This document shows, piece by piece, positions 34,478 to 37,336 of a stretch of DNA of 64,000 bases. The DNA lies in assembly GCF_000718515.1 (NCBI RefSeq), contig NZ_JNZS01000012.1, forward strand, positions 195,115 through 259,114, in the 5' to 3' direction. Under the pieces are notes generated by a model. That model did no database searches and was not told where the DNA came from. It saw only the letters and a program-made list of their open reading frames with translations. A program made the translations under genes and the position numbers. The stretch comes from Micromonospora parva (lineage in GTDB: Bacteria; Actinomycetota; Actinomycetes; Mycobacteriales; Micromonosporaceae). Position 1 is the stretch's first letter, and the number at the start of each line of letters is the position of its first letter.

Positions 34478-35242
34478 CTACCGCTGCCAGGCGTCGATGG
34501 CGCGTACGCCGTCGCGCACGACCCGGTCCAGGATGGCCGGGTTGCCGCTGGTGCCCTCCCACCCCTGGTCGTTGAAGACCGTCACCGCGCTGTCGACGCG
34601 GGCCACGGCGATCTGGCTGGACGCGGTGCCGCCGGTGCGTTCGCCGTTCAGGCTCGTCTCCGGCCAGGTCCGGGTCAGCAGCAGCCCCTCGCCACCGACC
34701 CCGGTCAGCACCTCGCTCTTGACGGTGACCCGGTTTCCGGCCTGCTCGTAGGAGGGACACGCCTGCACGGCGGTGCGAAGCCGGTCCAGGTAGGCCGAGG
34801 CTCCGGCGCCGTCGAAGGTGAAGATGGTCTGGTGGATCATCCCCTGCGGCACGTTGCTGGCGGGCTCGCCGGCCGTCTGGTAGGTGACGGTCATCGCGGC
34901 GCTCGCGGTGACCTGCCGGCCGCCGGTGCCGAACTCGTTGCCGCACAGCGTCGGCAGGGCCTCCTCGACGGGTGTCGTCCGTCGTGGAGACTTCCGCAGC
35001 TCGGCGGGCAACTCGACGAAGGCCGAGGTCGGGATGGTCACCCGGGTGCTCGCGCTCGGAGATGGTGACTCCGTCGGGGGCGTTGACGTTGCCGCGCTCG
35101 TCGGTGCGGTGGTCGCCGGTGCGGAGCCGGGCGGATCATCGGTGGTGGTGCAGGCGGCGGCCAGCGCGATGGTGCCGAGCAGTGGGAGCAGCGCGAGCGA
35201 GCGTCGGGTACGCGCCGGTGGCAGTGGTACGGATCGGCTCAT
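34478..35242 (-). CDS. Secreted lipoprotein of unknown function
   Basis: A 254-residue exported protein. The signal peptide ALLPLLGTIALAAACTTTDD has lipobox AAAC, with the lipidated Cys at about residue 31. A Pro/Ser/Thr-rich linker (about 40-75) follows. The globular C-terminal part has paired Cys (LCGNEFG and QACPSYEQ) and resembles the sensor-like domain of actinobacterial PknH-type lipoproteins (QIAVARVDSAVTVFNDQGWEG), but this is a weak similarity. ATG 35242 is best spaced behind AAGGGG. It is divergent from the argS leader. Confidence 0.75.
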   Translation of the reverse strand: MSRSVPLPPARTRRSLALLPLLGTIALAAACTTTDDPPGSAPATTAPTSAATSTPPTESPSPSASTRVTIPTSAFVELPAELRKSPRRTTPVEEALPTLCGNEFGTGGRQVTASAAMTVTYQTAGEPASNVPQGMIHQTIFTFDGAGASAYLDRLRTAVQACPSYEQAGNRVTVKSEVLTGVGGEGLLLTRTWPETSLNGERTGGTASSQIAVARVDSAVTVFNDQGWEGTSGNPAILDRVVRDGVRAIDAWQR

Positions 35243-35362
35243 CATCACCCCTTGTCTGTGCCGGGAAGGTGCCCAGCACCGCGCCGACCGAAACGATCAC
35301 CAGGCGGCGCGGGGATCGACCGGGCCACCGGAATTGAGGTGTCGTCACATCGACCGGGCCAC

Positions 35363-35368
35363 TAGGCT
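35363..35368 (+). promoter_or_regulatory. Leaderless-type -10 element of the argS leader
   Basis: TAGGCT followed by exactly 7 nt and the leader-peptide ATG at 35376. The transcript should begin at the ATG itself. No good -35 box was seen at the normal distance. Confidence 0.55.
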
Positions 35369-35375
35369 GCCCCGC

Positions 35376-35471
35376 ATGACCAGCGTAATCGCTCACCGCA
35401 CCACCGGACTGTCGGGTGACGTCCAGGTCGGTGCGGAGCGACGCCGGCGACCCGTCGCCCGCCCGCGCTGA
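35376..35471 (+). CDS. Arginine-rich leader peptide upstream of argS
   Basis: A 31-codon ORF that ends in AERRRRPVARPR. Seven of 31 residues are Arg, including four in a row read by CGA, CGC, CGG and CGA. Its ATG lies 7 nt after a TAGGCT -10 element, so it is probably read from a leaderless mRNA. The stop is 10 nt before a perfect hairpin (35482-35507), and argS begins 119 nt after the stop. This is the arrangement of a ribosome-mediated attenuator: when charged Arg-tRNA is scarce the ribosome should stall on the Arg run and prevent the hairpin, raising argS expression. The element is inferred from sequence only. Confidence 0.7.
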   Translation: MTSVIAHRTTGLSGDVQVGAERRRRPVARPR

Positions 35472-35481
35472 CCTGTTCCTG

Positions 35482-35507
35482 CGACCGGCGGATCGAGCCG
35501 CCGGTCG
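35482..35507 (+). terminator. Attenuator hairpin between the leader peptide and argS
   Basis: Arms 35482-35491 and 35498-35507 pair perfectly over 10 bp (CGACCGGCGG and its complement) with a 6-nt ATCGAG loop. The 3' arm can instead pair with CCGGCG at 35445-35450 inside the Arg codons, which gives a possible antiterminator. Confidence 0.65.
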
Positions 35508-35590
35508 TTCGCTGGTCGTCCTCGGTCCGCCCGCATCTCCCCGTCAACGGCTCGCGTGACAGCGCGGGTCCGAGCGAGATCGGCGTACCC

Positions 35591-37336
35591 ATGGATCTTG
35601 AAAAGTTGTTGTCCGACCGGCTGGCACCGGCGTTCGCGGCGGTGGCCGGCGGCCCGGTCGACCCGCTGGTGCGGCGGTCCGGGCGCGCGGACTTCCAGTC
35701 CGACGCGGCGCTGGCGCTGGCCCGGCGGCTCGGTCGCCCGCCGCGGGACATCGCCGGCGCGGTGCTGGCCCACGCGGTGCTCGACGACATCGGCGTGTCG
35801 GCCGAGGTCTCCGGGCCGGGTTTCATCAACCTGACACTCGCCGACCGGGCGCTGGCCGACCTGGTCGCCGGGCTGGCGGGCGACGCCCGGCTCGGCGTGC
35901 CGCCGACGGCGACGCCGCAGACCGTGGTGGTCGACTACTCGGCGCCCAACGTGGCGAAGGAGATGCACGTCGGGCACCTCCGCTCGACCGTCATCGGTGA
36001 CGCGGCGGTGCGGCTGCTGACCTGGCTCGGGCACCGGGTGGTGCGGGTCAACCACCTGGGTGACTGGGGGACACCGTTCGGCATGCTGATCGAGCACCTG
36101 ATCGACCTCGGTGAGGCCGAGGCCGCGCAGCACCTGTCGATGGGCGACCTGGACACCTTCTATCGGGCGGCCCGTGTGAAGTTCGACGAAGACGAGGCGT
36201 TCCGGGAACGGTCCCGGCTGCGGGTGGTCGCGTTGCAGGGCGGCGACGAGCGGACCCGGCGGCTGTGGCGGCTGCTGGTGACGCAGTCCGAGCGGTACTT
36301 CCTGACCGTGTACGACCTGCTCGACGTGGGGTTGTCCGGCGACGACTTCCGGGGCGAGAGCGCCTACAACCATCTGCTCGCTGGTGTCGTCGACGACCTG
36401 GACCGGCTGGGGCTGCTGCGGCCCAGCGGTGGGGCCGAGTGCGTCTTCCCGCCCGGGTTCACCGGCCGGGACGGCGCGCCGTTGCCGCTGATCGTGCGCA
36501 AGAGTGACGGTGGGTACGGCTATCCGGCCACCGACCTGGCCGCGCTGCGGCAGCGCGTCGGCGAGCTGGGCGCGACCCGGCTGCTGTACGTCGTCGGCCT
36601 GCCGCAGCGGCAGCACTTCGCGATGGTGTTCGCCGTCGCCGAGGCGGCCGGTTGGCTCCGCCCACCGGTCCGGGCCGAGCATCTGGGCTTCGGGTCCATC
36701 CTCGGCGCCGACGGTCGGATGCTGCGTAGCCGGGCCGGTGAGTCGGTGAAGCTGGTCGGCCTGCTGGAGGAGGCGGTCGCCCGCGCCACCGACCTGGCCC
36801 GCAGCAGAAACCCGGACCTGGACGCCGAAGCCGCCGCCGAGATCGGCCGCGCGGTGGGCATCGGCGCGATCAAGTACGCGGACCTGTCCGTCGACCGGAC
36901 CAAGGATTACGTCCTGGACTGGGAGCGGATGCTCGCGCTGGACGGCAACACCGCGCCCTACCTCCAGTACGCGTACGCCCGGATCCGGTCGGTGCTGCGG
37001 CGGGCCGGGACCGCCGCGCAGCCGGATGCGCCGATCGTCCTCGCGCGGCCGGACGCGCCGATCGTCTTCGCGCAGCCGGCGGAGCGGGCGCTCGCGGTCG
37101 AGCTGCTCGGCTTCGCCGGGGTGGTCGGCGAGGTGGAGCGGAGCCTCGAACTCCACCAGCTCGCCGGGTACCTGCACCGGCTGGCTACCGCGTTCAGCGC
37201 GTTCTACGAGCGCTGCCCGGTGCTGCGCGCGTCGGACGAACTGCGGGAGAGCCGGCTGCTGCTGGCCGGGCTGACCGCCCGGACCCTGCGGCAGGGGCTG
37301 GACCTGCTCGGCATCCGAACGTTGGCGCGGATGTGA
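35591..37336 (+). CDS. argS: Arginyl-tRNA synthetase
   Basis: A 581-residue class I aminoacyl-tRNA synthetase. It has the N-terminal ArgS-specific domain (FQSDAALALARRLGRPP, SGPGFINLTL), the HIGH-type motif HVGH at 126-129 within SAPNVAKEMHVGHLRST, VNHLGDWGTPFGMLI, the Rossmann YPATDLAAL, GRMLRSRAGESVKL in place of KMSK (usual for ArgS), and the helical anticodon-binding DALR domain at the end (PYLQYAYARIRSVLRR). It charges tRNA(Arg) with arginine. It is preceded by a probable Arg-codon attenuator. The ribosome binding site just upstream is weak. Confidence 0.97.
   Translation: MDLEKLLSDRLAPAFAAVAGGPVDPLVRRSGRADFQSDAALALARRLGRPPRDIAGAVLAHAVLDDIGVSAEVSGPGFINLTLADRALADLVAGLAGDARLGVPPTATPQTVVVDYSAPNVAKEMHVGHLRSTVIGDAAVRLLTWLGHRVVRVNHLGDWGTPFGMLIEHLIDLGEAEAAQHLSMGDLDTFYRAARVKFDEDEAFRERSRLRVVALQGGDERTRRLWRLLVTQSERYFLTVYDLLDVGLSGDDFRGESAYNHLLAGVVDDLDRLGLLRPSGGAECVFPPGFTGRDGAPLPLIVRKSDGGYGYPATDLAALRQRVGELGATRLLYVVGLPQRQHFAMVFAVAEAAGWLRPPVRAEHLGFGSILGADGRMLRSRAGESVKLVGLLEEAVARATDLARSRNPDLDAEAAAEIGRAVGIGAIKYADLSVDRTKDYVLDWERMLALDGNTAPYLQYAYARIRSVLRRAGTAAQPDAPIVLARPDAPIVFAQPAERALAVELLGFAGVVGEVERSLELHQLAGYLHRLATAFSAFYERCPVLRASDELRESRLLLAGLTARTLRQGLDLLGIRTLARM

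Follow-up and report, generated by a model that had tools for sequence, protein, structure and literature searches.

How is a second arginine--tRNA ligase gene controlled, and where does the short arginine-rich open reading frame (ORF) in front of it come from? These questions are raised by a 64,000-nucleotide stretch of Micromonospora parva DNA (contig NZ_JNZS01000012.1, positions 195,115 to 259,114; hereafter the window), in which a leader ORF and two alternative RNA helices precede argS2, all on the forward strand. We propose, at a probability of roughly 0.78, that a ribosome-mediated attenuator couples the auxiliary argS2 to charged tRNA-Arg, and that its leader is derived from gltX2, a gene for glutamyl-tRNA synthetase. 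On this reading argS2 would probably be turned on when Arg-charged tRNA runs short.

Results

The leader ORF of the window (35376..35471) consists of 31 codons plus TGA, with its ATG at 35376 and its stop codon at 35469-35471. It encodes MTSVIAHRTTGLSGDVQVGAERRRRPVARPR and coincides with the end of a longer GTG frame, the short form being that of locus L001 (L and G numbers label loci and genomes, respectively). A -10-like box, TAGGCT, occupies 35363..35368, 7 nt before the start codon, so that a leaderless transcript is expected. The four Arg codons read from the sequence at 35439..35450, CGA-CGC-CGG-CGA, are the proposed stall codons. All these elements, as well as a 10-bp hairpin that starts 10 nt after the stop codon (35482-35507), had been noticed in a preliminary description of this DNA and are present. 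On its own, such an arrangement means little: the two strands of the window hold 20 ORFs of 8-60 codons whose start has a T[AT]NNNT box 5-8 nt ahead of it, and four of them, the leader included, encode RRR (the chance expectation of a boxed RRR ORF being ~0.007 per 280-nt stretch). The real argument is therefore conservation across species.

The upstream set comprised 161 loci, 150 of them distinct. It was made up of 13 of 80 contig loci, the other 67 being without such a leader by scan (two weak candidates among these, L060 and L065, were taken for chance); of L001 and 24 of 29 further loci from a search of relatives, where L107 and L109-L112 had no leader by eye and were dropped; and of 123 new loci from a search of the family, taken by rank as far as about 61% identity, with ~100 genomes below that left out. 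The 72 loci without a clear leader (67 + 5) were thus removed before the 150 regions were counted. Leaders were accepted if they had 8-60 codons, three or more of them for Arg, and if a T[AT]NNNT box preceded the start by 5-8 nt.

Of the 150 distinct regions upstream of argS2, 122 contain a leaderless-type Arg-rich ORF, nine a gltX2 tail and 19 neither, many of the last having a box directly before argS itself. The 123 loci taken unselected in rank order gave 96 leaders, eight gltX2 tails and 19 with neither, and the corresponding figures for all 148 whole-genome loci were 120, 9 and 19. A TANNNT box lies 5-8 nt before the start in 121 of the 122 leaders, its looser T[AT]NNNT form having been a selection criterion; two very short leaders (L231, L232) are doubtful. 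In the ArgS2 tree (101 rows; 58 in a second tree) the element-bearing leaders fill one large clade, outside which fall those further regions with neither leader nor gltX2 tail that could be placed, L202, L210 and L220 (in the tree as L269, L278 and L280). Conservation of the ORF and of its Arg run, on which the preliminary description had made its proposal depend, is thus found in the relatives.

The longest Arg run of the 122 leaders counts five codons in 8, four in 79, three in 23 and two in 12, and it includes CGA in all but one (121/122). CGA provides 200 of the 843 Arg codons in the leaders; the argS2 of the window has it at 1 of 61, and argS1, over its matched part, at 1 of 48. This bears out and extends an earlier remark that the rarer CGA occurs in the run. 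The leader of L301 has CGC in place of CGG. Catellatospora-type leaders belong to a different RNA and carry the runs CGA-CGA-CGA or CGA-CGA-CGC; the amino acid is therefore kept when the RNA is not.

The gene behind the leader, argS2 (35591..37336, 581 amino acids), scores 429.5 bits against TIGR00456 (cut-off 261.65) and contains the Pfam domains Arg_tRNA_synt_N, tRNA-synt_1d and DALR_1; the nearest solved structures by sequence are the arginine--tRNA ligases 6ao8 and 4oby. Another argS of the same genome (G000:C11:47172-48743) is also above the cut-off, and the two proteins are 26-30% identical across two segments. An argS of the 557-560 amino acid type (open frame 905 in G027) is above the cut-off in all 61 genus genomes searched, including genomes without a match to the type of the window (G001, G003, G012); matches to the window protein at E up to 1e-120 occur in 262 of 354 family genomes. 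Judged by these sequence data, the gene of the window is an auxiliary, divergent argS2 and not the housekeeping argS. The view that a leader peptide precedes argS thus stands as regards the conserved leaderless-type ORF with its Arg run, and has to be amended as regards the gene that it precedes.

Two helices can form downstream of the leader. Hairpin B:C (35482..35507) reads CGACCGGCGG-ATCGAG-CCGCCGGTCG, with the 5' arm at 35482-35491, the loop at 35492-35497 and the 3' arm C at 35498-35507. In the alternative helix B:D, the hairpin 5' arm and loop (35487..35497) pair with segment D (CTCGGTCCGCC, 35521..35531). The two helices use the same 5' arm and are hence mutually exclusive. In alignment A1, with 48 diverse sequences picked from 117 by a similarity cut, 90.2% of the cells of B:C are paired, and 13 cells show two-sided changes compared with 3.4 in shuffles, the compensatory changes lying in the outer stem; for B:D the values are 95.6% and 23 compared with 6.1. 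Slid partners likewise give fewer two-sided cells than either helix. When the partner of B:D is slid by one column, pairing drops to 53.9% or 38.4%. The B/D partner sequences are GGCGGATCGAG/CTCGGTCCGCC in the Micromonospora type, GGCGGATCGATC/GATCGATCCGCT in the gltX2 type and GGCGGGTCGATC/GGTCGACCCGCC in Actinoplanes L020, and some Micromonospora loci (L007 and its kin) have an internal mismatch in B:D. The hairpin claimed in the preliminary description is kept by compensatory changes, and the notion of mutually exclusive structures is sustained for B:C and B:D, both of which covary, and not for the pairing between the Arg codons and the 3' arm that had been suggested. No U-tract follows B:C in the window and no U run is seen in the alignment; the covarying hairpin is therefore no more than a putative terminator.

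The element seems to be specific for argS2. Covariance model R1 was searched in 150 family genomes with stricter filters, under which weak elements may be missed, and 60 rows in 50 genomes were among the matches listed. All 29 listed rows with E up to 1.7e-5 precede argS2, 24 by coordinates and five on fetched sequence, as do weaker rows (three by coordinates and one fetched, E 1.4e-4). Another five rows are short reverse-strand matches of the same hairpins at argS2 places (32 rows there in total). Of twelve rows that were fetched, half precede argS2 (E 3.7e-10 to 1.4e-4); the six others, at E 5.5e-5 to 8.5e-4, do not and were judged chance. No clear element was seen before another operon among the 44 of the 60 listed rows that were placed, the remaining 16 having E 4.7e-4 to 0.0097. 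A tRNA, T-box, riboswitch or other Rfam family was also considered and discarded: the window gave no match at the gathering cut-off, and five loci searched at E up to 0.1 gave none either.

In nine loci (L104, L177, L179, L180, L181, L183, L184, L186, L189) the element lies directly 3' of a glutamyl-tRNA synthetase gene. In G006 (L104), where copy number was checked, this gltX is a second copy, 76% identical to the other gltX. The last 18 codons of the nine gltX2 genes differ at fourfold sites by 0.039, compared with 0.216 in the body, where none of 184 windows is as low. The search string fixed the stop and the four sense codons before it; without these the value is 0.046, and 2 of 188 windows show no more difference than that. 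CGA accounts for 18 of the 45 Arg codons in the tail and for 2 of 108 in the body. The gltX1 genes of 11 relatives (12 were fetched; L247 was dropped because its end was unreadable) show a fourfold difference of 0.308 in the tail vs 0.270 in the body, and no CGA among 65 Arg codons. A working leader inside a gene would be expected to look like this synonymously frozen, CGA-rich tail.

Several leaders resemble gltX2 at one or both ends. L185, and L215 with the same upstream sequence, consists of the last ~46 codons of gltX2 fused to the promoter region and the GTG start of that gene; its promoter and start stretch of 64 nt is 81% identical to that of L317 (E 1e-13). L178 starts with MISSGIRVR, similar to MASSDIRVR and MTSSDLRVR of gltX2 (start codons read as M), and has RRERTVARLRAV near its end. 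The tails of 20 leaders, chosen by the author out of 122, were compared with gltX2 without gaps and against 2000 codon shuffles. None of the shuffles scored as high as L185, L105, L108, L133, L192, L194, L195, L197, L011 or L106, the last nine being 69-98% identical to the gltX2 tail, and one did for L193. The match was insignificant in nine of the 20, namely the leader of the window (0.51; 133/2000 shuffles as high), L084, L005, L097, L144, L176, L018, L234 and L178, the last of which seems to have a small indel.

N-terminal matches to gltX2 were computed for the 122 leaders with 500 shuffles each, and 21 are shown; the script placed gltX1 starts 3 nt off, so its gltX1 column is no fair comparator. 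L178 matched at 19 of 24 positions, L106 and L108 at 16 of 24, with no shuffle as high; 1, 3, 6 and 9 shuffles were as high for L192, L187, L011 and L194, respectively, so that significance was reached in a few leaders only. Neither the leader of the window (11/24; 186/500 shuffles) nor the Actinoplanes-type leaders matched significantly. Since the match of the window leader itself is insignificant, its origin is traced via members of its clade, L108 and L133 among them. Taken together, these similarities suggest that the leader is probably an internally deleted, shrunken gltX2. We consider it reasonably probable, with room for doubt, that a leader peptide was here born from a coding gene: the Arg-sensing leader of argS2 would be formed, in one clade, by the final ~18 codons of gltX2, and other lineages would have lost the gltX2 body in repeated deletions that spared the promoter, the start codon and the Arg-coding tail, to give a short leaderless leader like that of the window.

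Discussion

The attenuator that we propose would work as follows. RNA polymerase would start at or beside the leader ATG, and a ribosome would read the leaderless ORF. Under a shortage of Arg-tRNA the ribosome would stall at the CGA-led Arg run, and its position would bias which partner the hairpin 5' arm finds: the leader end, the 3' arm C or segment D. This choice would set the expression of argS2, up on starvation, the output being either termination (Rho-type, or by a hairpin without a U-tract) or translation. In the gltX2 clade the full gltX2 would take the place of the leader, and its 3' end would act as the leader of argS2. Leader translation, stalling, the sign of the response and the type of output are what we infer from the conserved ORF, the CGA-containing Arg run and the two covarying helices.

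A number of observations weigh against this attenuator. The leader counts are partly given by design, since at least three Arg codons and the box were required; the Arg run is of just two codons in twelve leaders, and L198, one of the 19 regions with neither leader nor gltX2 tail, is a natural variant that keeps the -10 box, the GTG start and the hairpin and has lost the Arg-coding part of the leader. As for B:C, 170 of 500 shuffles have at least as many pairs with two-sided change (3), and its outermost pair is unpaired in 33 of 47. For B:D, 17 two-sided cells persist at a slide of -1, and the number of further pair types, matched or exceeded by 316 of 500 shuffles, shows no excess. Moreover, covariation counts are inflated by relatedness, as rows share changes, and those of the Actinoplanes type may be one event. 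The canonical terminator is also missing: a consensus scan of 35240-35700 gave no promoter-like and no terminator-like site. Folding of 96 of the 117 sequences in four ribosome states, with the gltX2 loci entered with their last 16 codons alone, gave mean pairing probabilities of 0.88-0.96 for B:C and 0.02-0.04 for B:D in every state, which is no clean ribosome-driven switch. A shift was seen in single loci: a stalled ribosome moves pairing from B:C to B:D or the leader in L185, one of two stall positions does so in L104, and B:C is lost with the ribosome at the stop codon in L011. In RNA cut before arm C (117 sequences) the effect is modest, pairing of B with the leader being 0.36 without a ribosome, 0.59 with a stalled one and 0.51 with one at the stop codon; the better stall position exceeds the stop codon by over 0.1 in 72 of the 117 and is lower by over 0.1 in 10. 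The putative helix switch is supported by evolution, and weakly by thermodynamics.

Part of this evidence bears on how the helices would act. The absence of a U-tract after both B:C and B:D would suit a leader that senses arginine in the same way and acts on the translation or stability of the argS2 mRNA, the hairpins setting ribosome access or RNase sites. So would a strongly conserved block, GAGATCGGCGTACC (35576..35589), just before the argS2 start. Its GGCGTAC lies no more than 40 nt away from this start in 105 of the 150 distinct regions; the block is no clear ribosome-binding site and does not stay in frame from locus to locus. In Salmonella orf34-speF two consecutive Arg codons are sensed via mRNA structure and stability (PMC6386406). 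However, the end of D lies 22-23 nt from the argS2 start in six Salinispora-type loci, 25-34 nt in seven of the Actinoplanes type, 66-70 nt in nine of the gltX2 type and a median of 56 nt (29-70) in 75 others, so B:D does not overlap the usual ribosome-binding site; we regard this output, which overlaps with our own reading, as worth keeping in mind and somewhat doubtful. Quite improbable, in our opinion, is the classical arrangement of the preliminary description, with B:C as an intrinsic terminator and the Arg codons sequestering its 3' arm as antiterminator. In its favour, B:C is a strong hairpin that covaries, and hairpins without U-tails also occur behind some gltX1 genes of relatives (L238, L249; by eye). 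A pairing of CCGGCG, within the Arg codons, with CGCCGG in the 3' arm can be drawn on paper, but the mean pairing of this arm with the leader is 0.01-0.04 in the four ribosome states of the same 96 sequences (exceptions being L011, 0.72 with the ribosome at the stop codon, and L185, up to 0.39 when stalled), and CCGGCG is missing in gltX2-type tails and in L301. The antiterminator was rejected, being unsupported on average; besides, a stalled ribosome would cover the Arg codons and so would block such pairing.

It is still less probable that the hairpin region serves as a protein-binding operator, for instance for autoregulation by ArgRS on a tRNA-like loop, the ORF being incidental. The loop holds UCG or CCG in most loci, but AUUGAG loops occur (L090, L149), changes in the loop are accompanied by matching ones in D, a sign of base pairing, and the Arg run, the CGA bias and the frozen gltX2 tail are left unexplained. 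The origin of the leader could also be read in reverse, a short ancestral leader having received gltX by a later in-frame insertion, so that the ends of gltX2 were taken from the leader. The gltX2 operons form nine rows within one 16-row clade of the ArgS2 tree, and two changes suffice under unordered parsimony; this leaves the direction unsettled, and the origin argument is therefore carried by sequence similarity. The ends of gltX2 are unlike those of gltX1, which would speak for an insertion, but leaders outside the gltX2 clade carry a native GltX core (RERRVARLRA in L192), L108 is 80% identical to the gltX2 tail where the codon-shuffle maximum is 0.67, and a gltX2 with nearly the same tail (..ALDRMS) is found in G042, a genome of another family without an argS2 match. 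A leader descended from gltX2 is what we favour, and the reverse course seems unlikely.

Among the closest known systems is that of Vecchione and Sello from 2010, in which the gene of an auxiliary, antibiotic-resistant tryptophanyl-tRNA synthetase (TrpRS) of Streptomyces coelicolor is said to be under ribosome-mediated transcriptional attenuation with a Trp-codon leader. Like argS2 it concerns an auxiliary synthetase, with Trp there and Arg here; no inhibitor is known for ArgRS2. In Streptomyces lividans, leader peptides (leuL2, trpL2, alaL and thrL) are described before the synthetase genes leuS, trpS, alaS and thrS, respectively (PMC8079986). These share with the window an actinobacterial host, cognate codons and a synthetase gene downstream; a leaderless start is stated for the leuS, trpS and thrS leaders, and trpL2 and thrL have no clear U-tract, as in the window. 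By this account a terminator with a U-tract is not a strict feature of actinobacterial attenuators (PMC8079986). The argS2 leader differs in its auxiliary gene, the preference for CGA, the two exclusive covarying helices and the apparent descent from gltX, and in the main text of the S. lividans paper there is no Arg or argS leader (PMC8079986).

For arginine itself, the short ORF of Salmonella orf34-speF is reported to sense arginine by its consecutive Arg codons, via ribosome pausing and alternative mRNA folds (PMC6386406). The Arg codons in a short ORF are shared with the argS2 leader; the Salmonella system is unlike it in being gammaproteobacterial, in controlling ornithine decarboxylase and in the effects of RNase G and Rho, and the orf34 start codon is at mRNA nucleotide 32 and so is not leaderless. 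No sequence relation between the two is claimed. The mycobacterial polycysteine ORFs of Canestrari (2020), as summarised in PMC9031893, are leaderless short ORFs with a codon run as attenuator, like that of the window, and differ from it in the use of Cys and in the operons concerned. In Actinobacteria a 2005 survey reported no conserved regulatory RNA structures ahead of arginine operons (PMC1262725). Among the matches listed for the open-licence literature, some of them the top of longer lists, we recognised no paper describing an argS leader peptide, which is weak evidence of absence.

Our results would extend the leader-peptide control proposed for amino acids in Actinobacteria to arginine and argS. 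If the attenuator is real, the spare ArgRS would be inducible, and by analogy with the inducible antibiotic-resistant TrpRS a search for a natural ArgRS inhibitor becomes a testable aim. The series from gltX2 to leader would be a concrete case of the origin of a leader peptide, in which the 3' end of a coding gene doubles as a sensor of tRNA charging for the next gene.

Additional features of the locus

A small hairpin inside the window leader, GGCGAC-CC-GTCGCC (35446..35459, by reading), joins the Arg codons with the leader end and is a possible pause or protector stem. Within argS2, ARAGORN calls a tRNA-Gly (TCC) at 35660-35750, probably falsely, as it lies inside the coding sequence in GC-rich DNA. 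Some genomes (G292, G254, G023, G203) have two argS2 matches each. In L108 (G014), the gene directly upstream of argS2 resembles tryptophanyl-tRNA synthetase (TGDRPTGRLHLGHYVGS..., by eye), so that argS2 would have a further synthetase gene as its neighbour there as well. In G006, an open frame convergent to argS2 (L104, 1-1455) has no Pfam match and resembles by eye the frame behind the lone gltX2 of G042 (L282), as if argS2 had been inserted or lost between gltX2 and that frame.

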